From Paramacrobiotus metropolitanus (taxonomy: Eukaryota; Tardigrada; Eutardigrada; Parachela; Macrobiotidae): DNA of 64,000 nucleotides. Below the pieces are notes generated by a model. It was not told the DNA's origin, made no database searches, and saw only the letters and a program-made list of their open reading frames with translations. A program made the translations under genes and the position numbers. The stretch spans positions 372,001 to 436,000 of the forward strand of contig NW_026570301.1 in NCBI RefSeq assembly GCF_019649055.1, given 5' to 3'. This document shows, piece by piece, positions 13,501 to 52,100 of this stretch. The first letter of the stretch is position 1; every line of letters begins with the position of its first letter.

Positions 13501-16025
13501 AAAGTGGCTACCTTAACGACACGCAGTTGTCGTGGTACACTCTAGGCAACAAGCTGCCTGCGGATTTTCCCCTGTGTGGTCTGCACGGCGAAAACTGTTG
13601 GTACACTCGATCACCGGGTTCGTTGTGAGGATGTATATTCTAATTAAAAAAATATTCAAACGGAGTTTTGTAATTTTGTTTTCCGAATAGAAATTCCGAT
13701 TATTCTGCCTGCATTAACTGTTGCCATCGTCATAACGGCGGTGTTGATTGCTCTGGTGATGCGGTAAGTTAGACAACGCCTGGATTGAATTGCCAACAAT
13801 AAATATTTTTTAAAGACAACGTTGAAACATATTTGCAGCCAGAAGGCGCACCAAAAACAATTAGCCAAACTGTTCATCCCCCGCGATGACGTGACCTTTG
13901 ATGGCACAACAGAGCCTGGCTACACGATGCAGATCAGCGAAGACTCACCGCTGGGAATTCTCACACAAATTCGCACGCATAAAGCGTTCTGCAAACTGCT
14001 AATCAATACACAGAAGCGTTATCTAATTCGAAACACAAAATTCTGCCAAACGCTGGCGACAGTAAGAAACGACATATTCGCTATGCTCGTACACGTAAAT
14101 GTGACGGTCTCTGATTTTACAGGTTTCAGAGCTGCATAATCGATACATTGCACAATTTTACGGAATTCTTGTCGAGAGCACAACGTGTTATTTAGCATAC
14201 GAAGCGACAGAAAAGGCGACCCTGCGCCACGTCATTCAACGAAGCAGTCATTTTCTCGACGCTGATTTGAAGACCTACTGGATTACCAATTTAATTGAAG
14301 TATCCGCAAAAACTGAAGCTTTAACTAAAAGTGCATGTACAGTATCATAAATAATTTTCCGAACCAGCTAACTTTGATACCATTTAAAAGTAACACAAGT
14401 TGACACGCATTGATTTTGATTTGAATTTTAGGGAGTCGTTTTTGTACATAAATCCCCACTGAAAAGCCACGGGATGTTGTCCATCGACGTCTGCCTCATC
14501 GATTCGCGCTATACTATCAAGATCTCCCTAACCGGATACAAGCAGTTATATGAAACTCTGTGCAAAGATTCTCCAACCGATGCCTGTGATACGCGTCAAC
14601 TGGGATTGATATTCGCTCAGCTCTTTGGAAGTGCTAACGTATGTGTTGCTGCGTTATTTGCTCACGGTTGCATAGTACTGATGCAAAATATTTTTCAGCA
14701 GATTTCGGGCGAGGTAATACCACGTCCCAATGCAACCATTCCGCCACATGTGCAGAACCTAATCAATGAGTGCCTTGCCGAAGAAACCGACGAGAAATTG
14801 CGCAAGGGTGTTTTATTCAAACGCCTGAAATCACTGACGCAATCGAAAAATAACATAGTAGAATTGTTACTCCGCCGTCTGGATGAGTACGCGCAGTCGC
14901 TGGAAGGCTCGGTGATGGACCGCACCGAGATGCTCATCAAAGAAACACAGAAAGTCGACATCTTACTGCGGGAAATGTTTCCCAGGTAACGGAAATACAG
15001 AAACTCCTGAATTTTAGAAAGTTACCTGCATTACCGTCTTTAGCGCGATTGTATCGCGGCTGCGTAACCGGGACCTGGTCTTACCGGAACTGTTCGACTC
15101 TGCTACAGTTCTCTTCAGTGATATCCCGGCGTTTGCTGGTCTGGTGACGGTGCTGCATCCTATGCGCATCGTGGAACTGCTCAACACGATGCATAGTCGG
15201 TACGATGAGATTGTCGGACGGTTCGATGTGTATAAAGTGGAAACTATCAGCGATTCCTACGTGGTAAGTTGTTGCTAGTCTTTCCTTTATTGTCTTAACG
15301 CGCTGTTCACTAATCAGGTTGTCAGCGGCGTTCCGCAGCGAAACGGCATCGCTCACGCCACGGAGCAGTGCGCGTTCGCGTTGAATCTCGTATTAGTTGG
15401 TCAGAGTGTCAAGGAGCTGTTGCACGATATGGACTTCTTGGCTGTGCGCATCGGCATCAACTCCGGTAAGTGGGCCCATTCATTTCGGTTTAAACCTATT
15501 AAATTTTTTGTATTTGATATTTTATAGGTCCAGTTGTGGCAGCGATAGTTGGTTTGCGGATGCCACGCTACTGCTTGTAAGTTGTAAGAAACTACGAACC
15601 GTTTACTGTCATAAGGACAAATATACAGCTTCAATAAACACAATTTGTTAGGTTCGGAGATGCGATGAATACTGCAAGTCGCATGGAATCACATGGAGCT
15701 GGTAAAACTTCGTTGAATTTTCTCGAACTTTAAAGTGGATCTATTCGGAAAAATCAATATTAAATGTCCATTCACCATGGCAGCAAATATGGTGCACGTC
15801 ACTACAACGACCAAACGCCTGGTGGAATCAGTGGATTCGCAGCGCTTTCTGTTCGAACCTCGTGGCTCAGTACTGATAAAGGTCAGTTCACCACGCTGTT
15901 GTTAAAACAGATGCATGTACTGAAGTGCAGGATTGAAACACCGCAGTGTGCATTTTCAGGGAAAAGGGCTATTGGAAACGTTTTGGCTGATTCATGATTC
16001 CGGCGCCCTGACAAGAACAAATTGA
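10558..16025 (+). CDS. Receptor guanylyl cyclase GC-A, 20 exons
   Basis: Single-pass receptor predicted to make cGMP. Exons: 10558-10942, 11694-12068, 12429-12472, 12537-12575, 12631-12708, 12920-13063, 13137-13187, 13248-13421, 13479-13617, 13691-13763, 13839-14061, 14123-14299, 14432-14638, 14699-14985, 15044-15263, 15318-15465, 15528-15576, 15652-15701, 15784-15881, 15960-16025. They sum to 3,027 bases (1,008 aa), all GT-AG. Order: signal peptide; periplasmic-binding-like ectodomain to about residue 476, with a juxtamembrane Cys pair (LCGLHGENCWYT); helix IPIILPALTVAIVITAVLIA; short kinase-homology domain (HKSPLKSHGMLSIDVCLID, no APE segment); signalling helix; cyclase domain. The metal Asp residues (FSDIPAF about 825; VETISD about 869), guanine Glu and Cys (MPRYCLFGD), and catalytic Asn/Arg (NTASRMES) are present. 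VG of the P-loop is PA. Confidence 0.88.
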
Positions 16026-17182
16026 CGGTTGTCATCTCTAATCTAATCTGTAGCGATATCTAATTTATTAGATTCTCTATCACCCCAAGAGATTTGAATA
16101 GTAATATCCGCAAAATAATGCATGGGATTCATATGGTAACGTCCTTGGCTTTTATAATCTGTGCTATGGAGCGAAACAAGTTTTGCAAAGGTTGAATTTA
16201 AGGTTCATCGTTCTTTCCACACAAATCAGTCAGTTTTCCAGTTTTTGGCAGACTCGTCGTGTTTTCAAAATCTTTCCCTGTGACCGTAGCACTTGCGTTA
16301 AGGTATATTCATACTTCGCGTATGCGCATACAAAATACAGAAACTTGCGGGAGACAAACTTCTGAAATATACTCGTATATTCATAAACCTGTATGCGGGA
16401 CACATGTTGAAAGTCTGCTTTGTCGAATGTCTGCGCATACTTCGCGAAGTCTGTTGTTATCATTCACACTTCCACATAATTATATCAAGATACTAGAGGC
16501 GGTGCCGCGATGACGTAACATCGGTCATCGAAATTAGAAATTGAAACATTTAACAACAAAAATTGGGAACATTTCCTTTTCGACAACAACGTTAATTGGT
16601 GCGCTTAAAACCAAGAGCCATTTTATCTTGCCACTCTACTTTGCCGGCCGCACTGTTGAAGTATGATCGATATCCATCCCGGACTGCGCTAAGCTGTGGA
16701 GCTTTCTTTTTGTCCATTGCGCGCAAACAGAGTTCATACTCCAGAGACAAATTTTTGTATTTCGCATGTACTGTATTTCGCCAAATACACAAAGTATGAA
16801 TATACCTTTACGTAAGGCGTATATTAGACAACATGGTTCATTGCTCATTGCGGTCATGTTGGAAACAATGTTGTATGCGAACAGTTTTACACCATTACAT
16901 GACAGCCGAGACGGCAGAAAAGAAAAACAAACGAAAAACTGCAACAGTTGTATACACGTCCTGTTTAGTGAAGTGATAGGTTCACTAGATGACAGGAAAA
17001 ACGCTATTTGAGACCTCTGTTAACTCCACAACTGATCGGATCATGCTAGCATATGGATGAAAGCGCAATGAAATACAAAACTAACTTTTGTTCTCGTTTC
17101 GAACATTCTACATTCTGTTGGCAGCACAAAATCGAGAAGAACATTAAACAAAAAAGTCTCTCCTTATTGAGCGACGTTGGCT
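16026..17182. other. Intergenic between GC-A and GC-B, with inverted repeat
   Basis: Contains near-identical inverted arms of 25 bases (16292-16316 and 16792-16816, two mismatches) about 475 bp apart. Weaker matching continues around them, suggesting an old foldback element. GC-B promoter elements must lie toward the right end. No coding exon recognised. Confidence 0.5.
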
Positions 17183-20100
17183 ATGTTAGATGTTAAAAAT
17201 AGTATGGAGAGCCTTTTTATTGCGCTCACTTTGGTCGTCGTTTCAACGTTCACGTATGCAGTGAGAATCAATTTCGTATCAGTTATAATGGAACCAGAAG
17301 GCCGCAACGGCTATTTAGAGCGCGTTCCGACAATGGATTTACTGATGGACATTCTGCGAGATCACGACGCAGTGTTTATCAATGCTACTCACATTCCCTT
17401 GGGTTATGATAAAAGCCTTGAAGGCAATACCTCCGTGATTCCGTCTTTCTACAAAGTTAGAAGCGGAGATGGACGCTGTGATGAAGCGAAAGCTAATGTC
17501 CAAAGCGTGTTTTGGCCGTTTTATTATAGCCACCAGGAGATGTTCGATGCCCCGTGGAACGAGCAAGTGACCATCGTTATGGCAGCAGGTGAAGCAATGA
17601 ATTGCGTTTTATGCAACGCCGCCATACTTCTACAACGTTTAGAAACGTAAATTAGGAAGATGGTATGTTCTTAAATTTTTCACATAGTTTTCTTGCCTTT
17701 AAGGTGTTACTGTAGCCGTTCTATTCTGAAAAGCGTATTCTTCAAATTGCCGTATAAACTGTAAGTAATACTTCGAAAATCACTTTTACAGCAGTTTGAT
17801 CACACTGACACTTAACACAAAAATTTCACTGCTAAACAAATTTCGATATGGTCCAGCTTTAAGCCCATTTCCTATGCCCCGCATAAACCGCCTGATGCGA
17901 GCGTAATTTGACCCTAACTGATTTTGAAGTTTTTAAAATTCCCGCATTTTCGATTTCCGGCTCCTCATCTCATAAGAGGGTTTTTTTGCCAAAAATCGCT
18001 TGGAAAATAAAAGTTAATGACGAGGAATTACGAAGTTAAGAGTTAATTAGGAGAATTAGTCTACAAAGGCACGCGTGCCGGTTTGAACAAGTTACAAGAC
18101 AACTCCTTTCCCCTGTGCGACGCACAAACAATGCGTTAGGAACCTCAGAACCTGCCCGGATTCAGGGCAGCATCCTATCGGCAAACTCCTTTGCATAACA
18201 TGCAGGAATTAATTTTGTCCGAGTCGAAGGTCTGCTGATACCATAGAAAACTGTTACCGAGAGACCACGCACGAAGCTATTGTATCTGTACATGTACGAC
18301 ATCTGTTGTATCTGTACATCTGTTGTATCTCGTATATATCAAAAGCATGCACGGACCCTAAATAGCAACAATTCCAAGCATTTTAACCAGAGGTCTGCGT
18401 AATTTACCACCGTTTTTTTCTCTCGTGATTTTAACAATATTAAGTGCTAAACATTCCTCATATGACTGATGACCAAACTGCTCCACGTGTTTCAGCATGT
18501 GAGCAAGCAGTAATGGAATTGGCGTACGCCACAACCGGCATCAATGTACCGCTGCTGGTTATATCACCGGATACCCGTTTATCCGATGTCGGACGTTTTC
18601 CTGCCGTACTAAACACCTTTTCGATGCCGGATTACCTCTTCGCAGCGACCCTAGCTGCCATGGCCGTCAAATATGGTTGGTCAGAAGTAACGGCGCTATG
18701 CACATACGAACGAACCTTTCAGAATAAAATGTGCAACAATATCGTCGAATATCTGGCGTTGGTGAAAAGCGGATTGCAAGTGTTTTGCCATTACCTACCT
18801 ATCGACCGCAGCAATTTCACGACGAGAGGAGTTTATGATGAAGGAATAAAACTGGCGAAAGAGCGGCGAGGTTTCTACATAAACTTTTAATACAGATACA
18901 GCTGTATCACAATTCGCAACTATCTTCTATTCTCTTTTGCAGTAACTCTGGTTTCACTTCCACCGTATATCATGAGACATTTCATGGTAAAATAATTTTA
19001 GTGCTAGACGGAGCTAGAGAATCTTTGCAGCTACGTTACGAATTGCAGATAAGTGCGCTGGAAAACAACCTCGTCACTGGCGAATATGTATGCATTCTTG
19101 CAATCGGGAGACAGTCATAAATGCTATCGAACTATTGTATACCTTTTATCGGCTCATATAGGTGTTCGTTGCGTTTCAAATCATGGGAGTCCCTGCGAGC
19201 GATGATTTATACCGACAAGACGACCAGAGTGTTAACATGGTTCGTAACAACGTATTTTTTATTGAAAATAATCATGCTACAGTTAGCGCTCTTGAATGAT
19301 TTAATTTTTAATGTTATCTCCTTTACCAAATACCAAGTTCCGATAACAGAGGCAATCATAATTGTTAGACGTTGTTGAAGAAAGCTTTCAAATCCTTGGT
19401 GGTGGTTATGGACGGCGTACCGGAAGCAAACGGTACTTTGGCTACACTTCGGCAAGAACTCATAGAGGAATTTCACCTGCGCTACAATTGGACAATTGAT
19501 ATCGACCATTTGGTATGCTTTTTTGTCTTTAGTCATAATATAGGCTATCATCAGTGCTCGGTTGCTTCCAAAAATATCTGTATGTTGCAGAGTGTCGACC
19601 CGTTATGGCTCTATGAACTGCTCCAGTTGTTTGCTCAGGTGCGGCGTTTTGCTCACGATAATGTTATTAATGTATCACAGTCCTTTTTACGGGTACATAC
19701 CGTACAGGTTTTCCTTGAAATTTATAACGAGCTGCCGCGCATCCGCGGACGAGACTTCATCGACAGATTTCTCGGACGGACATACATGGTGGCCACTAAA
19801 ACTATGACATTGCGCCCGACCGGACGCATGCTGAGTCTGGTTTCTATTGCGCAGTTTGACAGCAACCGAAGCCAATTTGTAGTGAGTAATAATTGTGAAA
19901 ATACTGATATTTCGCAACTTGCGCTTATAGTTTACTTTTCTGTTAGACGAAACTGACTTTTCACCCGCAAACTGAACAGATTGACGGCACCGGCTTATCG
20001 TGGCATAATATGGGTAATTTCTTGCCCCCCGATTTTCCCTACTGTGGTTTACATGGTGAATACTGTTGGTATACCAAGTTACCAGGTTAGCTGTCTCCCT

Positions 20101-22535
20101 GAACTAGCCACCATTTGGATCATAATAAGCCTGATAATCCTCTGATTTCCTGTATTAGTGTTAATCCAGGTAATAGTACCGACATTGACTGGAGTTCTGC
20201 TGCTAAGCGCGGTGGTGGCTGTTTTCGTTTTGCGGTAAGCCAGTATTATCAGAAACAGGAAGCGTAATTTTAACACGTTTACACGGATAAAACGTTGCGA
20301 TTTGCAGACACAAGGAACAGCAGCGTCGGATAGCAGCACTGTTTCTTCCTCGGCACGATGTGGAATTTCGAGCTCCAATTCCCTGTACCGACGCAGCAGT
20401 GGTTCATAACGACTCCCCGTTAGGCATTCTTGTCCATGGCAGAAACTTCAGTGCCTATTACAAGCAGCTAGCAAGTGCTACCAAAGGTCACCTTGTCCGA
20501 AACACGGCATTCTGCGAAACATTATCAACTGTATGTATGTATGCAACTATGCATGCTTGGTGTCGGTACTTCGTGGCGTGATTTTTTTACAGGGCTCATG
20601 CAAGCCGATCTTCTTGCAGATCAGCAAATTGCGCAGTCCCTTTGTTGCAAATTTCTACGGAATTTTCGTGGATAATACTCTGTGTTACCTGGCTTATGAA
20701 GCCACCGAGAAGGCAACACTTCGGCATGTAACAAAAAGCAACAGTCATATGCTGGATGTGGATCTGAAAATGTTTTGGATTACGAATTTAATAGAGGTAA
20801 TAGTTAGAAGTCTTTATGATTTCGCTGACAAATGGTTTAGTGCATTTATGCAACTTTAAGATGTGTCTTATCTGCTAAGATATGCGAACGACAGACAGTA
20901 CGTTGTGCAGGGTATCTTATTCATTCACAAATCCCCGCTTAAAAGCCACGGAATGCTATCCATCGATGTGTGCCTAATCGACTCCCGCTACACCGTCAAA
21001 ATCTCATTAGTCGGATACAAGCAATTATGGAAATCACTTTGCGGAGGCTCTCTAAATGACTCACGCGATACATACCAGCTAGGAGTGATCTTTGCTGAGC
21101 TTTTCGAAGGTGGTGACGAAAGATTTAATTGCGGAGTGAGTATCCCTCGTTAAACATTTGGCGCAACGTACCCGGCACGCAATAAACACGCTTAATATCT
21201 TTCCAAGGGGTCCGTTGAAATATCCCAACAAAATCCCACTCCAGTGGGGCCTGTATACGTGAAAAATTTGATCAACGAATGCCTGAGCGAAAAAACAGAT
21301 GACAAAATAACGAACGGAATTCTTCGGCAACATTTAAAGCCGCTGGCTCGGTCAAGGAATAACATCGTGGAGTTGCTACTTCAGAGAATAGAGCAGCATG
21401 CACAATCGTTGGAAACCGCGGTAATCGACCGCACCCAGGAGCTAGTTAAGGAAACCCACAAAGTTGACGGTTTACTTCGGGAAATATTTCCTCGGTGTGT
21501 GTAAGAATTTGTCTGCAAGTGACTGCAACCTAGCTGCCCTTACTTTCACATGATAGAAAATTCGCTCTTTTAGCAATATCGTACTCCGGCTGCGTAACCG
21601 CGAACATGTCAGGCCGGAGCTATTTGATTGCGCCACGGTCCTCTTCAGCGACATACCGGCGTTTACCGGTCTGGTGACGGTATTGCATCCCATGCGCATT
21701 GTAGAGCTACTCAATGTGATGCACAGCCGGTTCGATGAGACTGTCGGACAATTCGATGTGTACAAAGTGGAGACCATCAGCGATTCCTATGTCGTAAGTT
21801 CTTCCAGATCTTGACCTTTGTTATATTTAAACTCTCCTTCGATCCAGGTTGTCAGCGGAGTTCCGCAACCAAACGGTATCGCTCACGCAACAGAACAGTG
21901 TGCGTTTGCGTTAAACCTCGTATTAGTTGGGCAAAGTGTCAAGGAGCTGCTGCCTGAAATAGATGTCTTGGCTGTGCGCATCGGCATTAATTCCGGTATG
22001 TACAAAACATAGATTTTAGTCTGAGAGGTGGAATCTCATAACCCTTGGTTACATTTATTAGGGCCCGTGGCCGCGGCAATAATTGGTCTGCGGATGCCGC
22101 GGTATTGCTTGTGGGTGATATTATTAAACTCTGATCAAATTAACTTCCCATCAGAATGATTTCTTAGGTTCGGAGATGCGATGAATACTGCAAGCCGGAT
22201 GGAATCGCATGGAATAGGTGCATCTTCGTTAGCTCAATCCAGAAAACAATTGTCTACTGTGCGTATTTCCTTCGCGTTTAAGAAAATGATTTTCCATTGC
22301 AGTGAATATGGTGCATGTTAGTAAAACAACAAAGAACTTAGTGGAATCAGCGAATCCACAGCGTTTCCGTTTCGAAGCTCGTGGGTCTGTGTTGATTAAG
22401 GTCAGTTTTGCCGGCTCCGATACAAAACTGCGCGCCCTCTTATTTTGATCAGTAGCCGTTGGATTGTAGGGAAAAGGTATGTTGGAAACCTTTTGGCTGA
22501 CGCATGACTTGGGCGCACTGACTAAAGCAGTCTGA
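17183..22535 (+). CDS. Receptor guanylyl cyclase GC-B, 20 exons
   Basis: Closest relative of GC-A, with the same exon plan. Exons: 17183-17588, 18496-18870, 18943-18986, 19049-19087, 19162-19239, 19369-19512, 19591-19638, 19708-19881, 19947-20085, 20177-20234, 20308-20530, 20620-20796, 20911-21135, 21208-21494, 21574-21793, 21848-21995, 22062-22110, 22168-22217, 22303-22400, 22470-22535. Sum 3,048 bases, 1,015 aa. The start is the ATG of MLDVKNSMESLFIALTLVV; the open frame begins six bases earlier at a TTG. For exon 10 the second AG was chosen because only it keeps a hydrophobic helix (LLLSAVVAVFVLR). Exon 14 could use a donor six bases later, adding two residues. Cyclase residues: FSDIPAF, VETISD, MPRYCLFGDAMNTASRMES. 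The kinase-homology domain is reduced as in GC-A. The 0.9-kb second intron is the longest. Confidence 0.87.
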
Positions 22536-26593: not shown

Positions 26594-26617
26594 ATCACAA
26601 GACAACAAAAACAGAAA

Positions 26618-26771
26618 AATTTTTATGCAGCAAGTGACACATGTTAGCGTTTAACATTCCCCATTTATAACAATTCGCACACACATACATACTGTAACAG
26701 AGAGACCACTAGAAAGGGGGCGTGTCGTGTGTCGCAATACCCGGATTCCTGCGTCCCTCTGAATCCAATCC
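26618..26771. repeat. 154-bp direct repeat Y, left copy
   Basis: Starts aatttttatgcagcaagtga and ends ctgaatccaatcc. Identical by eye to the copy 1,845 bases further on, implying recent origin or gene conversion. Confidence 0.9.
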
Positions 26772-26868
26772 ATTGCTCCTACACGCCACGCGAGAACACC
26801 AAAGGTGGGCTCGGAATTTACTTCCTTTGGGCAGTTATGCCGAACATGGCCGGAAACGGCCCCAAGCC
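26772..26868. repeat. 97-bp repeat X, copy 2
   Basis: Second copy of X, directly following repeat Y with no spacer. Together with X copy 1 it suggests two tandem elements sharing one Y repeat, the left one internally deleted. Confidence 0.88.
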
Positions 26869-28462: not shown

Positions 28463-28616
28463 AATTTTTATGCAGCAAGTGACACATGTTAGCGTTTAAC
28501 ATTCCCCATTTATAACAATTCGCACACACATACATACTGTAACAGAGAGACCACTAGAAAGGGGGCGTGTCGTGTGTCGCAATACCCGGATTCCTGCGTC
28601 CCTCTGAATCCAATCC
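28463..28616. repeat. 154-bp direct repeat Y, right copy
   Basis: Right terminal copy. It ends at ccaatcc and runs into unrelated sequence (gtttcaattatg), while the left copy runs into repeat X. Confidence 0.9.
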
Positions 28617-37674: not shown

Positions 37675-37972
37675 TAACCTTCACACTCTGTTCTCCAAAG
37701 TCGTGAACACGCTGGCAAAATAATAAAGCGCTTTTCTAGTCTTGTATTCTGATCGATAGAGTGGTGTGTATAATCAATACTGGGCAAATAAATCTGGCTC
37801 GCTACCGGCATCGATTACGACGAGCAAACAATTAACGGCACAATGGATAATTGTATAATTGTGTTGTATACATATTTCTCCCGCGTCGGGCAGCGTTCGA
37901 GGAGGTCGGTGATCGTGAAGCGTCACAGATGGTGCTGAGAAACAGCCTTGAAAATATTTATTTCCCTTAAAT
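37675..37972. other. Spacer with candidate poly(A) signal
   Basis: An AATAAA hexamer at 37722-37727, 48 bases after the peptide gene stop, is the likely polyadenylation signal. The rest is the short promoter region of GC-D. Confidence 0.5.
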
Positions 37973-40900
37973 ATGTTGTTGACGGGTTTCTGCTTAATTA
38001 TCTCGCTCCGGTTGGCCGCGGCGACCACCACCTTGAAAGCCGGGATTATCTTAACCCAGGGGAGTAAAAATCTGTACGATTATGATGTGGTGAAAGCCGC
38101 ATTGCGTGCCGGTTACGATGATTCGTTAAGCCGGTTTGATGTGAGATTTGAAGAACGGTTATGCCTGTATAAAGGCGACTGTAGTGTCACGAATGCCGTG
38201 GGACAGACTTATATCTGCGGGGTTACGTATGCGGTGGACGTAATTATCGGTAAGCTAAGAAATTACATCCAAGAAATCCGATTAAAATCCAAAACATCAA
38301 AGAAACCTGTTTACGTTACGGAGTGTAAGAAAGCCTAAACAAAATACGAAAATATTTACTGAACATTAGGACCTTGTCAAGAAACGTGGATGTGGAAATT
38401 ATGACCTTTACAGGGCCTGGCTGCACGGATGATATGATGGCGTCGCTGGAGCCGCAGACCTGGCTGCATATTCCCAGCGTCACGGGCGGCGGGACCCTGG
38501 TGGATTCCACAGCCAAATTCCCCTACATCACCCGGGTGTCGTATAATACGTACACGCAATGGGTGTTCTTCATCAATATGTGCAAGAAATTCCTCTGGAC
38601 CAACGTGGCCATCATCTTCAATCGCGACAACAACGTCAACAAGATCAACGAACAAAGTACTCCTACAATAATATTTTAGTCAATACTTCGTTTCTTACGG
38701 CCTGTTTAAACACAGAACCACTTGTCTCTGAATTTTTGGTGGATAATTTATGTGACGGAAGACTAAAACTGCCCGAAGCGGTAGAATGTAGATACAGTGT
38801 AAGACTTGAAAACAGGAATCGGCCTGTCTATTCACCGTTTAAAAATTTATTAAAACAATCAGCAAAAAGTTTGTAAAGAGGATCACATCCAGCGCGCAAA
38901 AATAGCCAGAACTGGATTCGAACAGAGAAGTGCTTTTTTGCGCGATAAACGTTAAAACGATAGTGTAATGATTAATCCTTCAGAATCCCCGGTGCGGTCG
39001 ATATTACTATGCATCAGGATCACGTGCTTATGTTGTTTTTAGGTTTAGTGAAGAATCTCAACGCCAACAACATTACACCCATTGAACTACCGCTCGAGGA
39101 CGGTACCATAAAGATTCCCGCGCAAGCCGAGCAGTACCTGCAGAATGCCAGCTTATCGGCGCGCGGTATGTTCTCTCAAAGCCGGCTCTTGGTTTCTTCC
39201 TGTGCCGTCATTGATGTAGTCGGCTAACCGTCTAATTTCCTGTGCCTGTTGTGCAGTGGTGGTTATCTTAACCGATGGAACAGTATTGCGGAAGTTTATG
39301 CTAGCCGCTAGTAATCTGGGCTTTACCAATGGAGATTATGCCTTCTTTTCGTTGGATCCCTTCCGCGACGATATCCTTGGAAAAAACGGTTGGCAACTTG
39401 GTACGACTTTCCATTAAAAAAATTTTAAAATATTATAATATTTTGGATTATTTCTTAAATTGCAGAAGATAATTTTGATAATCAGGCCAAACAAGCGTAT
39501 GAAGCGCTAATGGTCCTCACACTCCGCGACACATCGCGGACGGAGCGATACAAGTTATTCGCGCAGACTCTCAACGAGACCGCCGCTCGCGATTTCCCCG
39601 GGATGGCCGTGACATTGAACTATATCCTTTTTCTTAAATCGCGGCGTTTTAATGATAGGATTTCTGCGTAAAGTAAATAAGCGGTTTCGTTAACCGGTAA
39701 GGGTACATTATGTAGCGTCCTTCTACGATTCGATTCTGGTTTATGCGGCCTCCGTTAATCGCACACTGATGAACGGCCAATCCATCGATCTTCGCGTCAA
39801 TATTGACGGATTGTCGCAGGCACAATGGAATCGCAGTCTGCCCGGTAAAAAGGCCCAATCCATCCTGTTTTATTTCATTGTTACATTTCACCAGCGCAAA
39901 GCACTGATTGGGCATGTGGCATGCTTTATAGGTGCCACCGGGGATGTTTACATTAATCCGCTGGGAGACCGCAATGATGACCACTCCATGTATGGATTCG
40001 ATGACAAGGGGAACCCTTATGTAAGCACATTGACATGACTGTATGATATGCTGCCGGCATATAGAAAAGCTTTCGCATTAGCCACGTTTCGGCTGTAATT
40101 ATGACTGCGCAAACAAAACATCCACGAACTCTTACACAGGAAAAGTAATTTCCTACGAAATACAAAAAAACTCGATAAACGTCGATCAAAAAAGCATGCG
40201 GCGAACTACAGAAATTAATTGTTTTGAGAAATGTATAATAAAAGTGTTTAAATGTGTCTGAAAAATTTCGATAATTTTTAATAGAATAGCAAACAAATAC
40301 GAGTTTTTTGTCGACCATTTGCCAGTTCCACTAAAGAATCATTATTGTGGTTGAGGCAGTTTATTTTAGAAATTAGTGCGCAACGGTGCACTAGTATTAC
40401 ACTATTTACTTGCACAAACAAAATGTAGAAATATTTATGCGGTTTGAATTTAACAGTATTTGTAGCGCAACCGCATACCACCATAATTTCCGTCAGTACT
40501 CGTCGTTCAAATAGACGCCTAGCTGGATGGTTATCCAGCTGACTGCTTTACACAAAATTAGAATAATTATTCTAGCGGCAGCGTTGCCAATGCGAAAAAG
40601 ATTAGACCGTTGATTTTGAAATAATCTGCAGATTATTGCCGACTTTTTTGGCTACAAGATTATCCAGAATCCCGCTTACACATTCGACCAAGTGGCGCAA
40701 TTTCACTGGCTGTCAGCGGCGAAAACACCGCCGATCAATGAACCGTTCTGTGGATATCTGGGAGATAAGCCCATCTGTGATAACTCAAGTAAAGGACACT
40801 ACTTAAAGTTAACAGTTAGCACCATACAGGAGAATTCTCTAATGCATATTCTATAATTAGTCAGACGAATTATTCTCTAATGGTTTAGTATTTACTGGGC

Positions 40901-43900
40901 GTTGTTAAGGTTAACGTAGTTAGAACAAAGTACGATATATAATACGACAAATTTTCTGTGTGATAAATAAGCTTTTTAACGGAATAACTTATTAATTATC
41001 TGGAATTTCTCGCTTAAGTTCTTGCTTGAGTACCGTAATCATTAAATCACGAATATGATAATCCACATCAGCCCAAACGTACTCAGGAAAATATTTAATT
41101 AATTTGTTTACATATAAGTAAGCAAATGTCTTAAACGGTATGCGGTGCCTGCAGAGCAGACACTGGGTATTGCGCTGGGCGCTGTGGCCGGTGTTCTAGT
41201 TATCGGCACCGCTCTGGGCATCTTCCTGTACCGCTACTACACCCGCAAAGCCGAACTGGCCCAGATGGATCTACTGGGTACCTGGGCGGATATCCAGAAG
41301 CCGCAGATCTTCCTGCCGCGCAATCACGGCAAAGACAAAGAGCATCAGCACGGCTCGGGCGGCAGTCATATCAGTCTGCAGATGAAATCCATGTTCAACG
41401 ATATGAGCAAGGTTAGCATCTATACTAATCATGTATACCGTAAGGATGGATCATCTTTAACACAAGTTCTCAATAATATTACCGTGTCATGTGACCGTTT
41501 CCACTAACAGTTCCAAACCCGCACCGTTATGGCACTGTTCAAGGAGCATCGCGTTATTGTGCGGGTATGCGAAGTGTCGCACGTGGACATGAGCAGTTCC
41601 GTGCTGAAGGAAGTGAAGACCGTGCGTGCCATCAACAACGAGAACGTCCTGGCGCTACATGGCCTGTGCCCGGGACCGGGGCGGGCAGTGGTTATGTACA
41701 ATTACTGTTCAAAGGGCAGCGTCAGTGTAAGTCCATTTATCCATTAAAAAAGATTTTCATCGCCCGGGATTACTGGTCCAGAATTCTTTAAATGTCGCAA
41801 TGAATGTTGTCGCAGTGAATGAATAGTTAAACATCTAATGTATTTCTATTACATAGTTATTTAGTGTAGAAACTCGAATAAGTTCCATCCGCCTTAAAAA
41901 AACAGCTGCTTTTAATGGAAGCACAAAATCGTTTTTTTTACGGGCATGTACAAAACAACCCCGGGAACCGATTGATTCAGTACGATGGTTTCCGCAGCAT
42001 TCTGCTACAAGCCTCTCGTTATTACTGCCTTCTATTTCGATCTATCGTCTGTAATTTATTTGTCACATCCCGTAGACTGTAAAAAGGCGTTGGTTGGTTA
42101 AAAAAAATTATCTACGTAACAGACTGACAGAAAGTGATAGATGAAATTGCTACTAAGTACTATCTTTTAAATGTTAATACACTTATTAATAGGAACAGTA
42201 ATAGATGCTAATTAGAATGTGTAAAATGTACAAGCTTAATAATATTAAGCCTATTCACGACCAAACTGTATAAAAACGTGCCCCTGCAGGATCTGCTGGA
42301 GTCCAGCGATGTGAAATTGGACTGGATCTTCAAATTCTCCTTTATCAAGAACATTCTCAGTGGCCTATCGGTCATTAGCAACGTTCTGGGATGCCACGGT
42401 CGGCTGACCTCGAAATGTTGCTTCGTGGACGCGCACTTTATTGCGCGAGTGGCGGACTACGGCCTACCGTCATTCTTCGCTCGCACCGTACCGCTGACGC
42501 AAGACAGCGCCTTCTGCGCGACCCTACTGTGGACCGCGCCCGAACTGCTGTCGCGGCCGTTTGCCGGAGGGACCCAAGAAGGCGATGTTTACTCGTACGC
42601 CATTATTCTCTCAGAGATCATCATGCGCGAGACAGCGTACAGCTCCACCGGCATGGAACCTGACCGTATGACCGACACTTCTTTAGTTTTTTGTTTACTA
42701 AAATGTTATATAAAATTATAATTGTAAACCATTAACATAAGCGTTTCTAAAATGGGCCACGCGATAACGTACGGGTCATATAATTAAAGTACGACATTCT
42801 GAAGGGTCACAATAGATATTGCATAATACTCGATGGTTGTAGCAATTGGCAATTATCATAAGCGTCTCGGAAGCAAAGTCACTGGAAACAAGTCACTGTC
42901 ACTATAAAAAATCTCTAACGTTAATTTAGGTTTACTTTTCTTCAGAGATCGTCGCCAAAGTGGCACAGAAAGCCTACAAACCGTTCCGACCGAAATTCGA
43001 TGCCAACGAGTGCCCACCGGAAATCTCGGTGCTTCTTAAGCAGTGTTGGGCCAGCAATCCATTGGAACGTCCCCGTATAGCGCAGATCAAAAGCGCAGTA
43101 AAAGAAAGCGAGAAGTGAGTTATGCGAAAATGCTGCGTGCCCTTCCAATCGGTACACGAGTTTTTGAACCTATTTGTTCTATCTTCGCAGATCCAACGCC
43201 GAACAAGGCAGTATTCTCGACACGCTGATTCGTCGAATGGAAAACTACACATTAGATTTGCAAGCCACCGTGGAAGAAAAAGCGGCACAATTTCAACTGG
43301 AGAAAGAAAAGAGCGAGCAGCTGCTGTACCAAATTCTCCCCAGGTATTAATGCGAGATTCTCATGAAAATGTTAGCAAATTGTAAATATTTAGTTTGCAG
43401 AGTGGTTGTCGACCAGTTAAAACGCGGCGAACAAGTGAAGCCGGAAGATTACGACAATGTGACCATCTTCCAGAGCGATATAGTCGGTTTTACGACCATC
43501 TCGTCCATGAGCAGCCCAACGGAAGTGGTCGACCTGCTCAATGATCTTTACACGGCTTTCGACGGAGCCATCATGAAATTCGATGCGTACAAGGTACTCG
43601 TATGTACCCATTTTCAATGGGCAATTCCTCTCTCACTAGGGTATGAATCAATAATTACTTTGTATTATCGAAAGTAAGAATGAAATAATTTCCAAAAGCT
43701 TACACAGTAAAACCAGTTGCAGTCAAAAACCTATTGCACTAACTTGATAGTATATTATCCCATTTTTTTGCTATTACGTAATACCAAATAATTACCGAAC
43801 TGTTCTTCTAATTACAAATGTAACAAATTCAATTGATACAACTTTATTCACAATTTAGGTGGAAACCATTGGTGACTGCTACGTCGTGGCGTCCGGTATC

Positions 43901-45421
43901 CCGGCACGCAACGGCAACAAACATGCCGTGGAGATCTGTCGATTGGCCATTATGTTGCTTGAACAGATTAAAGTGTTTAAAATGAAACACCGTCCGCAGG
44001 ATCAGTTGCGATTGCGTTTGGGTGCACACACAGGTACTGCGGTTATAACAGCTTAAGCCGCGGTAATTTGCTTTAGCTGCTGTATTTAAATGAATCTTTA
44101 CTTATTGTTAATGTGAAGTTGACAGCAGCGCTACGAGATACAGGATTCATTCATACTATAACTACTCGCAAACCATGTTTTTCTGTTATAAGGAAAATGG
44201 CCCGGTACACAGCGTCAAAACTGGGGTACATACATTTAAACTTTAGTTTTCCCGCACTCCGAATCATTTTTTGTAATACTTTATATCATCCTAAAGTTAA
44301 ATGATTTGTATACTACATTGTTCTGAAAACCGCTTGCGCGCGCAACATCCGGTTCCCGAGATATGGCGTATTGAAACTGGTGAAAAATTTAAATGCATTG
44401 TTATGTACCAAAAGTCTGGTTATTACCCGATCTGCTTGAAAATTTGCTGCAAAACACACGTGGACATAAAGTCAAAAAAGAACCGATATCAGATTCATAG
44501 ACTTTTTTCCCGGTTTCAAAATGAGATCCAAAAATTTTGGATTCATTTTAAATTTACGGGAAAGTGCTATGAACCTGAAATTGGTTTACTTTCGATTTTA
44601 TGGCCATGTGTCCTTTATCAGAAAGTTTCAAGAAGATCGGGTAATAACCAGACTTTTGGTACACAATAATGCATTTAAACTTTTAGCCCACTTTAATACG
44701 CCATATCTCCGCAACCGGATGTTGCGCGCGCAAACGGTTTTTAGAACAATGTATCCAAATATATGAGCTTTAGAATGATAAAGTATTACAAAAAATTGAT
44801 TCTAATTGCGCAAAAGCGAAAGTTTTACTCTATGTATCCCATTTCTGACACCATGTGCCGGGCCATTTGCCTTAACACTCGCTCACTTAACGAAACGATA
44901 CGCCTGCGCACTTTCAGAATACTGGAAGCAAGTTAATACTTTTCGATCGGTTAAATTCTTTGCCTGCTTTATTTGTCAGTCAGCCAAAATATGCGAAATG
45001 TAATTTCATGATAACTGCGTGTTTTACACAAATTATTACGCTTTTCAGGTGCAGTTGTGTCGGGCGTAGTTGGACTGGTTATGCCGCGCTACTGCCTGTA
45101 AGAAGACAAATCAATAGAAAACTACGGTGTAATGTTTTTTAAGGGTCGGTTTATGCCATAGGTTCGGGGAAACGATGACCATCGCATCGAAAATGGAATC
45201 CACTTCACAACGTAAGCGGTGTTGTGGAGTGTTATTGCTATACTACAGAATGTTATTGCATCCAAGTATTTTCCCTAGCGATGCGCATCCAGATCAGCCA
45301 GGCCTGTGAGCGTCTGCTGCAGACGATCGGCCAGTTCGATACGGAAGCGCGCGATGATCCGGTGAAGATCAAGGAAGGCCTGGAAATCCAAACATACTGG
45401 CTGCAACGAGAAATTATGTAG
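37973..45421 (+). CDS. Receptor guanylyl cyclase GC-D, 18 exons
   Basis: Second subfamily. Exons: 37973-38249, 38414-38656, 39043-39165, 39257-39400, 39466-39621, 39707-39844, 39932-40020, 40632-40788, 41155-41411, 41511-41726, 42290-42665, 42946-43114, 43191-43343, 43401-43593, 43859-44033, 45049-45097, 45162-45211, 45279-45421. Sum 3,108 bases, 1,035 aa. Signal peptide [17 protein letters not shown]. The ectodomain is a clear ANF-receptor fold ([19 protein letters not shown]; later [17 protein letters not shown]), with Cys pair [10 protein letters not shown]. Helix [19 protein letters not shown]. The kinase-homology domain is fuller: [27 protein letters not shown], but the beta-3 Lys looks like Arg. 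Cyclase: canonical [16 protein letters not shown] and MPRYCL, but then [13 protein letters not shown], so catalytic Asn becomes Thr (about 978) and Arg becomes Lys (about 982). Intron 5 is AT-AC. The intron before 45049 holds a foldback element. Confidence 0.88.
39622..39706 (+). other. AT-AC U12-type intron in GC-D
   Basis: The 5' end is ATATCCTTTTT, the 3' end GGGTAC, and TTCGTTAAC (39686-39694) lies about 12 bases before the end. This fits the minor-spliceosome donor (ATATCCTTT) and branch site (TTCCTTAAC, one mismatch). Removing it joins AAC T to AT TAT in phase 1, giving [11 protein letters not shown], the expected continuation of the receptor fold. No GT-AG choice keeps the frame. Confidence 0.88.
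44186..44877. repeat. Large foldback element inside GC-D intron
   Basis: An imperfect palindrome of about 690 bp, centred near 44533 on gagatccaaaaattttggat. Matching words in opposite orientation include gcgcgcaacatccggtt, gagatatggcgtatt, taccaaaagtctggttatta and aaatggcccgg. The arms match almost from end to end with substitutions and small gaps. No open frame for a transposase is seen, so it would be a non-autonomous (MITE/foldback) insertion. It lies in the 1.0-kb intron between the exons encoding GAHTG and MPRYCL. A diverged relative is at 63560-63925. Confidence 0.85.
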
Positions 45422-46135
45422 TGCCACATCCGGGGCGGCAGTTACAGGGTTCACCGTTGAGACATCCCAAAAGCACAAGATTTTGCAATAGTTCGTGACG
45501 TTGCTAATTTCTCTCAATGAACGAGTTGAATAATAGCAATATTTGCTGAATGTCCCGAGAATGAATGGCTACACGTACAACTACAAAAGTGTGTGAATTT
45601 TTCCAGGAAGAAGAGTGGAAATATTTTGCAGTGTCATAGCGTGTGTGTGTGGGATGAAAATTAGGACAATAAACTTTCTAAACCAAAGCCTGCGTAAAAC
45701 CGTGATATCATAAAAACACTCCCAGGTCACCGTGCGGTTAATCGGAAATCGGGTGCGCACGTTGCACAGTGCGCATCCTTTGTTCCACATTCTTTACAGC
45801 GGAAATCCAGAACAATCCATCAGCTGGACAAAAGCCTGTCTGATTTTCCCAATCAATAATGTTGTGCCAATGGAATTAGTCGATATATACTGAATGATGG
45901 TGTTCAACAACGCTTTAAAAATACCCACCATCTGCTCGGTGTGTAGTCATCGCGCTGTCGATAAACTGCACATTTTCGATCGCCGACAATATCAACAATG
46001 CATCGGTCAAAAAATAAGCAGCTAAGCATAAATGTGCGCAGCAATCCAATACAGCAAAGCTTCGTTACACTTTCTCTTATGCGCCCCGCGAAAACTTCAA
46101 AACTTTTTTTCGCCGGCATCTGTCTGATTTCCACC
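45422..46135. other. Spacer between GC-D and GC-E
   Basis: AATAAA at about 45668-45673 is a possible poly(A) signal for GC-D. The right part is GC-E leader or promoter; in-frame upstream ATGs at 45998 and 46079 could be alternative starts of GC-E. Confidence 0.5.
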
Positions 46136-49100
46136 ATGTTGTTTTTTATTTTGCGTTCTTGGATGTTGTTACTTTTGCATGTGCAAAGTTCCGCGTGTGT
46201 GACCATACAGAAAGCTGGGATAATATTAGCGCAAGGCAGCAAAGATCCCTATGACTACGATATCGTAAAGGCGGCATTACGCGCTGGCTACGACGATGCA
46301 CTGCAGAGATTTAATATCAAGTACGAAGAACGGCTCTGTTTGTACCAAGGCGGTTGCAGTGTCACCAATGCCGTGGGGATGACCTATATCTGCGGAGTGA
46401 CCCATGACGTCGACGTGATTATCGGTAAGAATGACCACATCGGTTTCTGAACGAATAATCAAAGGTTTTGCACTTTTTCCCAGAATAAAAATCGATTTGT
46501 AACAAATTTTGTAATTTTCATTTATTTCAAGTATCCTGCTAAAGTATTATTTGTGTTTTAAACTAAATTATTATTTATTTGCTTCGACGATCAAATCATT
46601 TATTTGTGCCATTTATGGAACAATTTAAAATGCATGTCCCGTCAAAGGAAACAAAATTTGAATCAGGATCTAACTATTACATATCGTTGTTCCACAACTT
46701 GCCTTTAGTTGTTAAAAATGTTAAAACAGATTCTCCAGACAGTCTTAATCGTAGCAAACGTTGAAACAGCTTCTCCGTTTATTTTTATGGTTGCATGCAT
46801 AGTAGTAGCTTTTGTCGATTGTTTTATTTATTTTTACTTATATGCTTCCGTCACGATTTTTATTTATATTCGGTTGTCCTGTGTCCAGTCAGTATACAAT
46901 TCCATGCTTTTTAAAATGTCCTTACGAGTTAGCTTAAGCCGCTGCTTAGCTTAAACTACGATTGCAAAAATCTGCCAAATTTCAAAATGATATTCTCGGT
47001 ATCTCAAGTTTTATGCCACAGCTAAGAAGAAATTACCATTAAATTACGATTGCTCTCTGTCTGTCAGATCGGTGATTTTAAAGCGCATTTTTGGATATTT
47101 TTTTTAAATTTGCAAAACATTTTCTTGTTGAAGTGCATTTCCTTCTCATCAGGGCCAGCATGTACGGCTGATTTGATGGCCTCCCTAGAGCCGCAGACCT
47201 ATCTCCTGATGCCAAGCGTGACCGGGGGTGGGACGTTCATCGATTCCACGGCCAAATTTCCGTATATTACCCGCGTTTCATATAACACATACACACAGTG
47301 GGCATTTTTCGTTAATATATGCCGGAAATTCAGCTGGACCAACGTGGCCATAATATACAGCCAGGATAACGATATTAATACGGTCAACAAAAACAGTACG
47401 CCCATTCATGTATTACTGGTCCAATGCTGGATACTCTTTATTTACATCCATTTCTTTTGAAATATAATTTTCAAGGTTTAATGAAAAATCTTAACGATCA
47501 TTCGTTAAACCCGATCGACCTGCCGTTTCCACCTGGCACAATTCGGATGGCGGACCATGCAGAGCAGTACTTGGTGAACGCCAGTCAAGTGGCACGAGGT
47601 AGCTGCCGCAAATCCATGAATCTACAAAATTAAAATAAATTAGAAATTAGGATGAGATTCCTTTATATTGCTACTGCAGACCATAATAACCAAAGTGATA
47701 AAATTAATTTGTTAATCAATTCTAATTGCAAAAATAAATTTTATTCTACAGCCGGCGTACACGGTGGCCACAAATAAAACCGGGCAACTCCTTCTGTGAC
47801 ACTGTTCTACGTTTGGCACAGGCGTGCCAGACTGTTTTGTACGATGCCAGACTGTTCTGCGAGTTCACAACTTCACATTAGTTGCTATTTTCCATTTTGT
47901 CTGTTCTAGTGTTCAAATTTTCAGTTATTTTTATTAACGCAGGCATGCTGCGCCAAAAGTATTAATTACCTCTGGTGCCACATACTTTGCCACCTTTGGT
48001 GCCACATACTGTGCCACCTTTGTATCATCGGTATAATTATAAAACCCGACTAATTGCAGTGGTGGTCATTCTAACGGATGGCCAGGTCCTGCGCTACTTC
48101 ATGCTGTCGGCGAAGACCCTAGGCTTCACCAGCGGCGACTACGCATTTTTCACGCTTGACCCGTTCCGCGACGATGCTCTGGGGAAGAACGGTTGGCGCC
48201 AAGGTCAGTTCTACCGGTGTTTGCTGAACCGTCTACCGTGCATCGATCGCCTAACCATACATTGTTGACAGACGATACCTTCGACCAGCTCGCCAAACAA
48301 GCGTATCAAGTGCTGTACATTCTGACACTGCGCGACACCACCGACACCGATCGCTATAAAGCCTTCGCCCAGACGGTTAACCGTACCGGGGAGCGGGATT
48401 TCCCGGGGATGCGTGTGCAGTTGAATTATATCCTTTTTTCTCGACAATCGAGTTGCCTGTGTACATAATCGGTTTCCTTAACGAGTGCTGATCACATTAT
48501 GTAGCGTCGTTCTATGACTCAGTACTGTTGTTTGCCTCCTCGGTCAATCGGACGCTGGAACGCAATCAGTCGATTGATAATCAGGTTAATGTGGCTGGAC
48601 TGTCGCAAGCGCAATGGAATCGCAGTTTTGCCGGTAAATCAGAGCACAGCTGTAATAACATTGCTACGCTAATCTACTTCAGTTTGTTCCCAGTGCGATA
48701 TTAAAAAACATTACGAAGAATTTAATCGAAAAATCTTTTTGAAGGCGCAACCGGCGATGTGTACATTAATCCCCGCGGTGACCGCAATGACGATCATGCC
48801 ATTTATGGATTCGACGAAGCCACTAAAGCCTACGTAAGATTTACGAACGAATCGACTTAAATCATTCGCGGTTGTAAATACAAACTTAAAAAAAAACATT
48901 GTCCTTTATTGTGGTTCAGTTGTAGGTTGTTGCGGAATTTATCGGCTATAAATTCGAGCTGGTCCCCGGCTATACGTATGACCCGATCGCACCGTTCCGC
49001 TGGCTCAATCCGACAAAGACTCCACCCGCCAATGAACCGTATTGCGGATATCTTGGTGACAAACCGGTGTGCGACACGTCCGGTAATTAAAAAGGACGTT

Positions 49101-52100
49101 TTTGAATATTTTTTATATAAAAAGTTGGTGACCGGTGCATATAGGCCAAACCATGGGCATCGCGTTGGGCGTGGTGGCCGCATTCTTATTGGCCGCGGCC
49201 GTGGTTATCTCCTTTCTGTACCGGTACTACACCCGTCGTGCCGAACTGGCCCAAATGGATCTTCTCGGCACCTGGGACGACATCAAAAAACCTCAAATCT
49301 TTCTTCCGCGCACTCGCGGTACCGCCCGCAGCCAGCCGGGGGTGAATGACAGTCATATCAGTCTGCAAGTGCGCTCCATGTTCAACGATATGAGCAAGGT
49401 GGGTTATGCTTTTGAGCGGAACGTTTCTGCAAAGGTTTGCTAATGAAGCGGCCTGATAGTTTTCCGACCGCACCGTGACGGCGCTTTTCAAGGAAGTCAA
49501 GGTGATGCTACGTGTGTGTGAAGTGCAGCATGTGCCCATGAATAGTGTGGTACTTAAGGAGGTCCGGACGGTGCGCTCCGTTAACCACGAGAATGTCCTG
49601 GCAGTGTATGGGCTGTGTCCGGGACCGGGCCGGGCGGTGGTTATGTATAATTACTGCTCCAAAGGAAGCCTCAGTGTAAGGGAAAACTGTATGGTAGCAT
49701 TACTACGGTAAATCCTAACAATGTGAGATTAAATAATATTCAATCTGAGATTCCATATTCAGTTCAGTATTCAGTTATAAATAAAATTAATCGCAGATTG
49801 CAGCAACCTGCGATTAATTTTTTTTAACGCCTACATAAATTTAAAGATTTAGAATAGAGGATGATTTTCTTGGACTCAGAAGTAAACTAAATATTAAGAT
49901 AGACAATTTTTTGTTTTAAATTTTCAAATGTGCCCTTGGTAGTTTTGTGCCTTGTAGTCAACTCTTCGTAAAAGACGAATCAAATAATAATCTAACGCAA
50001 ATGTGTATAAAAAATGGTATGTGTCTGATTAATAATGATTATTGCGATTTTAAAAGGATCTGCTAGCCTCGACGGATGTAAAGCTTGATTGGATCTTCAA
50101 GTTCTCCTTCATAAAAAATATCCTGCATGGCCTGGTGGCCATTTCCAGCAGTCCGCTGAACGTCCACGGACGTTTAACGTCGAAATGCTGTTTTGTCGAC
50201 GCGCATTTTATAGCGCGCGTTGCCGATTACGGGCTGCCGTCCTTTTTCGCCCGCACGCCGCCGTTGAACCAGGACAGTGCTTTTTGTTCCACCCTTTTCT
50301 GGACAGCACCAGAACTGCTCAGCCGGCCATTTGCCGGTGGCACTCCGGAGGGTGATGTGTACTCGTATGCGATTATTCTATCGGAAGTGGTTATGAGGGA
50401 AACGCCTTTTCATTCAATGGGCATGGAACCAGAGCGTGAGTATGGCCGAACATCTTATCACTTGTCTGCATATTTTATCATCACCTAATTTGTCGGTTTT
50501 CTCTGCATTTTCTCTTTAAGGAAAAGTTACACTTTATTGTCAGTGTGTAATGAAAAGAGCTCTTATTTTTAACAGTTTTCATGTCATACTTTGTAACAGA
50601 AATTATCGCGAAAGTTGGTCAGAAATCCTATAAACCCTTCCGGCCAAAATTCGACGCCAATGAATGTGCGCCGGAAATTGCTGTTTTGATGAAGCAGTGC
50701 TGGGCGGCCAATCCTATGGAGAGACCGCGGCTGGCGCAAATACGCAGCGCCATTAAAGACAGCGAAAGGTGTGTACAGGCCACCGCGTTGATTGTATTAA
50801 CAATAGTTACTGCAACAAATACCGAAATGAGGTGGCTTTTCTACAGAAACAATAACGAGCAAGGAAGCATTTTGGACACATTGATTCGCAGGATGGAGAA
50901 CTACACCCTGGACTTGCAAGCCATCGTCGAAGAAAAAGCCGCTCAGTTCCAAGTGGAGAAGGAGAAGAGCGAACAGCTGCTCAACCAAATCTTGCCCAGG
51001 TCAGAAAGTAACATTAATTTAAGGGCAAAAATTCTTTTATTTTCCACAAATACTGTTATCATTTTCGTACTTGATTACTATCATTATTATTCATTTTAAA
51101 ATTTTTCAAGTTTTTTAATCTATTCAGTGAATGTGTATTGAAAGAATCGTACGTAAAGTACAATAAACCGTTCGTTTTGCAAATTATTTTCCGTTTATGT
51201 TTGTATTACAAGGAAAGCAGAATATTGTGCGCCGATTGATCTATTTTTAATTTTTGACAAATTATCTGGTTCTGAATTGCTAGAGTTGTTGTGGAACAAC
51301 TAAAACGCGGCGAACAAGTGCAGCCAGAGGATTTCGACAGCGTCAGCATCTTCCAGAGCGACATTGTCGGCTTCACTACCATCTCATCGCAGAGCAGTCC
51401 CACGGAAGTAGTGGCGCTGCTCAATGACCTTTATACGGCGTTTGACGGTGCCATCATGAAGTTCGAAGCATACAAAGTATACGACGCTACGGAAGCATTT
51501 TTACACTGCAAAATCCTGACGTGTGTGATCTCTGAAGGTAGAAACCGTCGGGGATTGTTATGTGGTAGCATCTGGTGTACCGGAGCGTAACGGGAACAAG
51601 CACGCACGGGAGATCTGCCGGCTAGCTCTGATGCTGCTGGAGCAGATTAAAGCCTTCCGCATGCAACACCGGCCGAACGAGAAACTACGGCTACGCTTGG
51701 GAGCACATACAGGTAATCACGTTTTTAAGTGGCCACATAAAAGAAGCCGACAACGGCGAAGCGAAAAGAATTCCAGTACAGATTGCCGCCGCCCGGGGAT
51801 GGTATAGCGTTGCGGCGAAGTTTGACGCTTAATTCAAGCACCGTGTCTTTTCGCAATACCTTGCTCCAACCGGGCGGTGGTGGCGCATGCAAGATGTCTT
51901 TAGTGCCGTTATCTGTTCTTCTGTTCCACAAAAAAACTGGACGGCCCGGTTGATTTATTTATTAGGTCCTGTTGTGTCGGGAGTGGTTGGGCTGGTGATG
52001 CCTCGCTACTGTTTGTAAGAGCGCAGACTTTTTTTATGTCCTCTCATGCTCACTTTTATCTATAACAGTTTTCATTAATGCCAGATTTGGCGAAACGATG

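Follow-up and report, generated by a model that had tools for sequence, protein, structure and literature searches.

Complementary active-site changes in clustered tardigrade receptor guanylyl cyclases suggest heterodimers with one complete catalytic site

Five receptor guanylyl cyclase genes of the tardigrade Paramacrobiotus metropolitanus, here termed GC-A to GC-E, raise the question of how enzymes altered in different halves of the catalytic site could work. They lie on the plus strand of a 64,000-nucleotide stretch of DNA (the window; assembly GCF_019649055.1, contig NW_026570301.1, positions 372,001 to 436,000), whose numbering is used throughout. In the cyclase site as set out in passages of PMC2576301, one subunit contributes the pair of metal Asp residues and the beta4 Arg, and the other contributes an Asn, an Arg and a C-terminal Lys. 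An earlier note on this DNA had claimed that GC-A/B/C keep Asn, Arg, Cys and both Asp with the phosphate-binding loop (P-loop) changed from SDIVGFT to SDIPAF, that GC-D/E keep SDIVGFT and lose Asn and Arg, and that the two families, encoded side by side, look like the halves of obligate heterodimers. The best reading of the residues described below, one that we hold to be reasonably probable, is that of heterodimers with one complete site, for which pairing, co-expression, partner identity and catalytic output are what we infer from the sequences.

The exons were read directly at first, and a spliced profile aligner written for this analysis then placed the catalytic domains at 15048-15703 (GC-A), 21578-22219 (GC-B), 34668-35665 (GC-C), 43405-45213 (GC-D) and 51288-52136 (GC-E). 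Both residue descriptions in the earlier note were borne out by the spliced exons. The P-loop reads FSDIPAFA in GC-A (SDIPAFA, 15117..15137, first Asp codon 15120) and FSDIPAFT in GC-B (SDIPAFT, 21647..21667, Asp 21650) and GC-C (SDIPAFT, 34737..34757, Asp 34740); the final Thr of the loop is present in GC-B and GC-C, and the change common to all three genes is Val-Gly to Pro-Ala. There follow VETISD, in which the Glu and the second metal Asp are present and the Gly before the Asp has become Ser, the Cys in an RYC motif that is found in all five genes, and then FGDAMNTASRME. The Asn/Arg stretch of these three genes is RYCLFGDAMNTASRME, with Cys, Asn and Arg all present, and its exon FGDAMNTASRMES lies at 15652..15703 in GC-A (Asn 15668, Arg 15680), at 22168..22219 in GC-B (Asn 22184, Arg 22196) and at 35614..35665 in GC-C (Asn 35630, Arg 35642). 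In sum, GC-A/B/C have kept the metal Asp pair together with Glu, Cys, Asn and Arg, and the beta4 Arg too. In GC-D and GC-E the P-loop is an intact SDIVGFT (43474..43494, Asp 43477, and 51357..51377, Asp 51360, respectively), followed by VETIGD or VETVGD, RYC and FGETMTIA(S/A)KME. These two genes retain both metal Asp, Glu and Cys, with Asn replaced by Thr, Arg by Lys and FGD by FGE; their Asn/Arg exons are at 45162..45213 (Thr 45178, Lys 45190) and 52085..52136 (Thr 52101, Lys 52113). The range 15044-51712 that had been given for this feature leaves the GC-E Asn/Arg exon outside.

Both motifs, the P-loop of GC-A/B/C and the Thr/Lys of GC-D/E, are held by purifying selection and are not products of chance or decay. 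Chance is set aside because SDIPAF is identical in GC-A, GC-B and GC-C despite synonymous differences at 4 of its 6 codons, because the ratio of nonsynonymous to synonymous substitution (dN/dS) across the catalytic domain is low (0.068 for A-B, 0.072 for A-C and 0.041 for B-C), and because a gene on another contig, locus L001, shares the motif of GC-D/E. L001 reads FGETITIAAKME and has FGET.TIAAKME in common with GC-E at saturated synonymous divergence; within the D-E pair dN is 0.08 and dS is saturated. Decay of one family as the cause is ruled out by dN/dS. A switch of substrate to adenosine triphosphate was also considered and is ruled out by the guanine-reading Glu and Cys of the class III cyclase domain, which are present in all five genes. 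An alternative Asn/Arg exon in GC-D/E would have been scored higher by the aligner, and over the stretch that was scanned the aligner settled on the Thr/Lys exon. Three introns, of phases 0, 1 and 2, interrupt each catalytic domain, an arrangement that is also the most frequent across the genome (125 of the 180 scored loci), and the first of these introns lies nine codons earlier in GC-D/E than in GC-A/B/C.

As metal-side halves, GC-D/E would supply the two metal Asp, the SDIVGFT P-loop and the beta4 Arg, and a GC-D/E homodimer, with Thr and Lys in the places of Asn and Arg, would be without a complete site. GC-A/B/C would be base-side halves that supply the guanine-reading Glu and Cys and the catalytic Asn and Arg, their own metal-side site being probably poor or regulatory owing to the changed P-loop. 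If a D/E-type subunit paired with one of the A/B/C type, the dimer would then have one complete and one incomplete site. That GC-D/E are metal-side halves is very likely by analogy, since Thr and Lys stand in the same places in the alpha-1 subunit of soluble guanylyl cyclase (sGC) and in the fungal cyclase NeoR, and likeness to sGC alpha and NeoR also predicts that GC-D/E homodimers should be inactive. The five window genes are part of a family of some 190 or more cyclase genes, throughout which this division recurs: many varied base-side members, few metal-side ones and a group of complete enzymes.

The repertoire was surveyed with two P-loop-exon queries of the genome, which gave at least 201 distinct loci, a lower bound that may miss genes with a very degraded P-loop exon. 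These matches, which include soluble, odd and near-identical members of a 170 Mb genome, are several-fold more numerous than the 27 receptor cyclases that a passage in PMC8045692 gives for C. elegans. Aligned were 187 of the 195 loci outside the window (8 were left out) and 6 loci of the window, in all 193, of which 186 were non-redundant after 7 near-identical ones had been collapsed; loci outside the window were classed by the cyclase domain. Six rows were left out at the Asn/Arg step, GC-F (see below), L043, L046, L165 and L172 having columns missing and L079 being removed by hand; the aligned stretch of L079, SGKTVLTCSR, resembles a false exon and, taken as read, would make a sixth gene with both halves altered. 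A metal half was scored as intact if it matched D-[IVLM]-[VI]-x-[FY]-[TS] and kept the second Asp. Among the 180 scored loci both halves are intact in 26, Asn/Arg alone are lost in 15, the metal half alone is altered in 134 and both are altered in 5. The last five are L075 and L076 (near-identical, with two in-frame stops each), L102 (odd), L161 (Arg to Cys) and L170. L170 (C5:2547061) is the clearest gene with both halves altered, with changes at the first Asp, Glu, Cys, Asn and Arg and no stops in the aligned stretch, and is a candidate pseudo-cyclase. L075 (C79:22482) and L076 (C163:210955), together with L029, L030 and L031, mark a further metal-side group (FGVTVTIANKME) that has near-identical copies on two contigs; two members of the group adjoin a copy with in-frame stops, and this is probably duplicated or haplotype sequence.

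The two kinds of alteration exclude one another more often than expected (Fisher p = 1.5e-7 over the 180 loci). The p value is 1.1e-8 in a sensitivity set without L075, L076, L102 and L065 (soluble, alpha-like), and lies between 1e-7 and 4e-5 under three other definitions of the metal half. Among the 20 genes with altered Asn/Arg the first Asp is kept in 18 and the second in all 20, and the metal half is intact in 15; Lys replaces Arg in 13 of the 15 metal-side genes. Since the base-side class is defined by keeping Asn/Arg and the metal-side class by an intact P-loop, the absence of change within a class is definitional and is not counted as evidence. On a quick tree, where the two traits change 7 and 8 times, Pagel's test of correlated evolution is significant at p = 1.1e-4, or at 1.1e-3 if the four rows are dropped, and the rate of Asn/Arg loss is estimated at 0.66-0.81 on P-loop-intact branches vs 0.02-0.09 on altered ones. 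By parsimony 5 of the 6 Asn/Arg losses fall on P-loop-intact branches, which make up 14.5% of the tree length, and 1 on altered branches (p = 3e-4). The beta4 Arg stands outside the class definitions and is present in 40 of 41 P-loop-intact genes vs 94 of 133 base-side genes (p = 1e-4, relatedness uncorrected), and in 29 of the 63 base-side genes without a metal Asp (one is gapped there). The expectations for this residue and for the C-terminal Lys were noted just before the test, when the alignments had already been printed, so that the test was not strictly blind. The drift of the beta4 Arg in base-side genes holds, as the half-site logic expects, and the support for a genome-wide avoidance of altering both halves is real but moderate.

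Several results weigh against the reading of the two families as halves. With the Asp pair scored alone the exclusion is weak (p = 0.012, or 0.054 without the four rows), and with one row per cluster it falls to p = 0.07 at 60% identity and p = 1 at 50%. The tree was built from 134 columns with the trait columns excluded, and has many open forks and long-branch warnings. The independent-pairs test in treekit was not significant, with too few pairs to draw on (3 on supported branches). The beta4 Arg is present in 65 of the 71 base-side genes that keep the Asp pair. The expectation for the C-terminal Lys, that it would drift in metal-side genes alone, met with a mixed picture. GKG is lost in GC-D, GC-E and L001, but a Lys before it stays in GC-D/E, in IKE or IKD; GKG is present in all 8 of the 26 complete genes for which a candidate was located. 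Base-side candidates for this motif have GKG or GRG in 42 of 52 and neither in 10, as judged by a loose motif score. This score yielded nothing in 82 of the 134 base-side genes, in 18 of the 26 complete and in 10 of the 15 metal-side ones, and its hits in L007, L062 and L104 look like chance frames. GC-A/B/C themselves retain both metal Asp and the beta4 Arg, residues that should have been free to drift in a half without function. Finally, of the 59 pairs of neighbouring loci less than 20 kb apart, some with unscored or doubtful members, only 2 combine a metal-side with a base-side gene; one is GC-C/GC-D, within the window, and the other is L070/L001, on contig C40. Pairs of one type account for 50 of the 59 (37 base-side, 8 complete and 5 metal-side, with GC-F counted among the last).

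These results leave the claims of the earlier note standing in part. That the two families look like halves agrees with the half-site logic, the census and the beta4 Arg, and is tempered by the metal Asp kept in GC-A/B/C. Obligate pairing appears well argued for GC-D/E, by likeness to sGC alpha and NeoR; it would apply less to GC-A/B/C than to base-side genes without a metal Asp, because GC-A/B/C have lost no named catalytic side chain and only the Val-Gly of the P-loop. GC-C and GC-D do adjoin, as the note had it, and such neighbours are rare in the genome. It is adjacency alone that would point GC-A/B/C to GC-D/E in particular as partners. On contig C87, 101 kb separates a gene of the D/E clade (L002) from one of the A/B/C clade (L096), an arrangement that was noticed afterwards and is only suggestive.

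The alternative that survives best, though we consider it unlikely, is that GC-A/B/C are active as homodimers, their P-loop being unusual yet functional, and that only GC-D/E are incomplete and pair with cyclases of the complete type or act as dominant regulators. It would account for the fact that GC-A/B/C have lost none of the listed catalytic residues, nor the beta4 Arg, and for a 36-row fork of SDI/LPxF genes in which, by the tree labels, the first Asp is lost in only 3 and the second in 1; GC-D/E would find 26 complete-type genes available as partners. Against it stand the other base-side genes that are without a metal Asp, since Asn/Arg are retained in 63 of the 65 Asp-broken genes, which would be odd for homodimers. 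Proline, moreover, removes a backbone NH. The Val-Gly to Pro-Ala change sits in the loop of the triphosphate site, which a passage of PMC2576301 describes as P-loop-like in structure. The metal residues kept by GC-A/B/C could reflect either such an active homodimer or a regulatory site for guanosine triphosphate (GTP), as has been proposed for NeoR/RGC1.

It is less probable still that most of the altered genes are pseudo-cyclases, that is, receptors that have lost catalysis and that either form dimers and use the kinase-homology domain for signalling or act as traps for ligand. In favour of this explanation, the first metal Asp has given way to at least eleven different residues across the base-side set, and GC-C shows weak kinase-homology and linker matches. 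Dead enzymes should, however, also lose Glu, Asn and Arg, and the 139 genes with an altered metal half keep these in 138, 135 and 135 cases, and Cys in 132, vs 80 for the first Asp. Very improbable is a merely accidental correlation that goes back to a few old lineages, namely a base-side radiation plus a few Asn/Arg losses within the complete clade, the two being functionally unconnected. For it speak the strong clustering of the traits on the tree (6-8 changes each), the loss of significance in cluster-level counts and an independent-pairs test without power. Against it, the Pagel and branch-length tests stay significant, five of six parsimony losses of Asn/Arg lie on an intact P-loop background and the beta4 Arg behaves as expected.

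Under the preferred reading of heterodimers with one complete site, a combinatorial system can tentatively be proposed, in which well over a hundred base-side receptors, inactive alone, would be served by few metal-side or complete partners, the D/E type being dedicated partners and the window holding both halves side by side. Such a system would resemble the insect odorant receptors with their one common co-receptor. If it exists, a large sensory repertoire of mixed pairs has been made from receptor cyclases, one half providing the diversity of ligands and the other a shared catalysis, and the splitting of the cyclase site known from sGC, adenylyl cyclase, ODR-1/DAF-11 and NeoR has arisen again on a scale of about 190 genes. 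The residues needed in a partner would then be predictable for each altered gene. Since GC-D/E, sGC alpha and NeoR all have Thr/Lys as the replacement, there may be a favoured path by which metal-side halves arise.

To judge from their domain order the five genes are receptor cyclases, several of the domain matches, which were sought in GC-B to GC-E, being weak. The gene bounds are approximate. GC-A (10528..16025, first coding piece to stop) was assembled from open reading frame (ORF) pieces, a transmembrane-like stretch near 13699, the catalytic exons and a stop. GC-B (17171..22535) has an ANF_receptor piece at 18444-18887 (E=9e-5; 22.0 bits, below the Pfam cut-off of 25.4), a transmembrane-like stretch near 20173, catalytic exons and a stop; two of its pieces scanned for kinase homology gave no match. 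GC-C (29888..35840, 3' end not fixed) has a transmembrane-like stretch near 32833, a kinase-homology piece at 33190-33570 (E=1e-4, just below the cut-off) and an HNOBA-like piece at 34273-34581 (E=2e-3, below the cut-off) before its catalytic exons, and the one piece of it scanned was without an ANF_receptor match. In GC-D (37952..45421) the ANF_receptor match is below the cut-off (E=7e-5, 22.4 bits) and the PK_Tyr match above it (E=3e-13), and in GC-E (45965..52353) both are above it (E=4e-8, 33.2 bits, and E=7e-11); their transmembrane-like stretches lie near 41169 and 49159 and their catalytic exons follow. In all five genes this hydrophobic stretch is at the expected place, amid other hydrophobic frames.

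A sixth cyclase, GC-F, is a truncated and degraded copy of GC-E on the same strand (54417..54806, comprising the P-loop exon with a portion of the one after it). Its reading frame is broken in the second exon, its dN/dS against GC-E is 0.15, and the aligner found no Asn/Arg exon within the 1.6 kb given; it is a probable pseudogene. The region adjoining GC-E (54417-55130) also holds a degraded trace of a later exon near 55060, seen by eye. Between GC-B and GC-C two ORFs whose translations start alike (RLTFPIYNNSHTHTYCNRETTRKGACRVSQYPDSCVPLNPI, 26648-26926 and 28493-28771) are probably a repeated element. Two ORFs on the minus strand lie beside the cyclase cluster and were recognized by eye, one resembling a seven-transmembrane receptor (293-1210) and the other a leucine-rich-repeat protein (2997-3998). 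An Rfam scan of the window gave nothing at gathering scores. In a DNA search of the genome the SL1 leader had 0 matches with up to one mismatch allowed, and the repeat GATGGGTTTT, TTAGG and TTAGGG had 0 matches in a search that skips simple repeats, so the zeros for repeats may say little.

The closest solved structure for GC-B (9e-41) and GC-D (E 1.5e-60), the two that were searched, is natriuretic peptide receptor 1, which has the like kinds of domain in the like order as far as tested and which, unlike GC-D/E and GC-A/B/C, has its residues complete within the subunit. Mammalian receptor cyclases are homodimers according to a passage in PMC5225109. The division proposed here, metal side against Asn/Arg side, is that of sGC alpha and beta. 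When aligned with GC-D, sGC alpha-1 (6jt0_A) reads FGNNVTLANKFES, with Thr for Asn and Lys for Arg as in GC-D and also GC-E. The beta-1 subunit of sGC is without the first metal Asp, from which GC-A/B/C differ in keeping it. sGC is soluble and senses through haem; GC-D/E have a transmembrane-like stretch and kinase homology and hence are not sGC. Catalytic homodimers of sGC alpha or beta are inactive and the mixture is active, as reported in passages of PMC3591389.

The rhodopsin guanylyl cyclases of chytrid fungi are light receptors with an unrelated sensory domain, and among them NeoR has the Thr/Lys of GC-D/E. According to passages of PMC12264004, T455/K459 replace NxxxR in NeoR, which contributes the metal Asp and has no activity by itself; RGC2, also inactive alone, is active with NeoR. 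Asn and Arg put into NeoR alone gave no activity, so that more than this pair differs, and for NeoR/RGC1 the authors propose one catalytic site and one at which GTP binds without catalysis and regulates (PMC12264004).

Among animal receptor cyclases, ODR-1 and DAF-11 of C. elegans have been proposed to complete one site as a heterodimer, a fusion experiment having required both intracellular halves (passages in PMC5225109 and PMC8045692), and there are clues that they may also act as homodimers (PMC8045692). They are one pair as against the repertoire described here, and the likeness drawn here is one of description. With this precedent, a heterodimeric receptor cyclase is still unusual, as the earlier note had said. 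Several C. elegans receptor cyclases, among the 27 of the species, have been hypothesised, according to a passage of PMC8045692, to be obligate heterodimers, as GTP-binding or Mg-coordinating residues are missing, and lineage-specific expansions are described in a passage of PMC1435932. Among the matches listed in the open-licence literature, no repertoire of this size and no such residue census was found. Heterodimers of receptor cyclases are thus already known, and it is their scale in this tardigrade that appears to be new.

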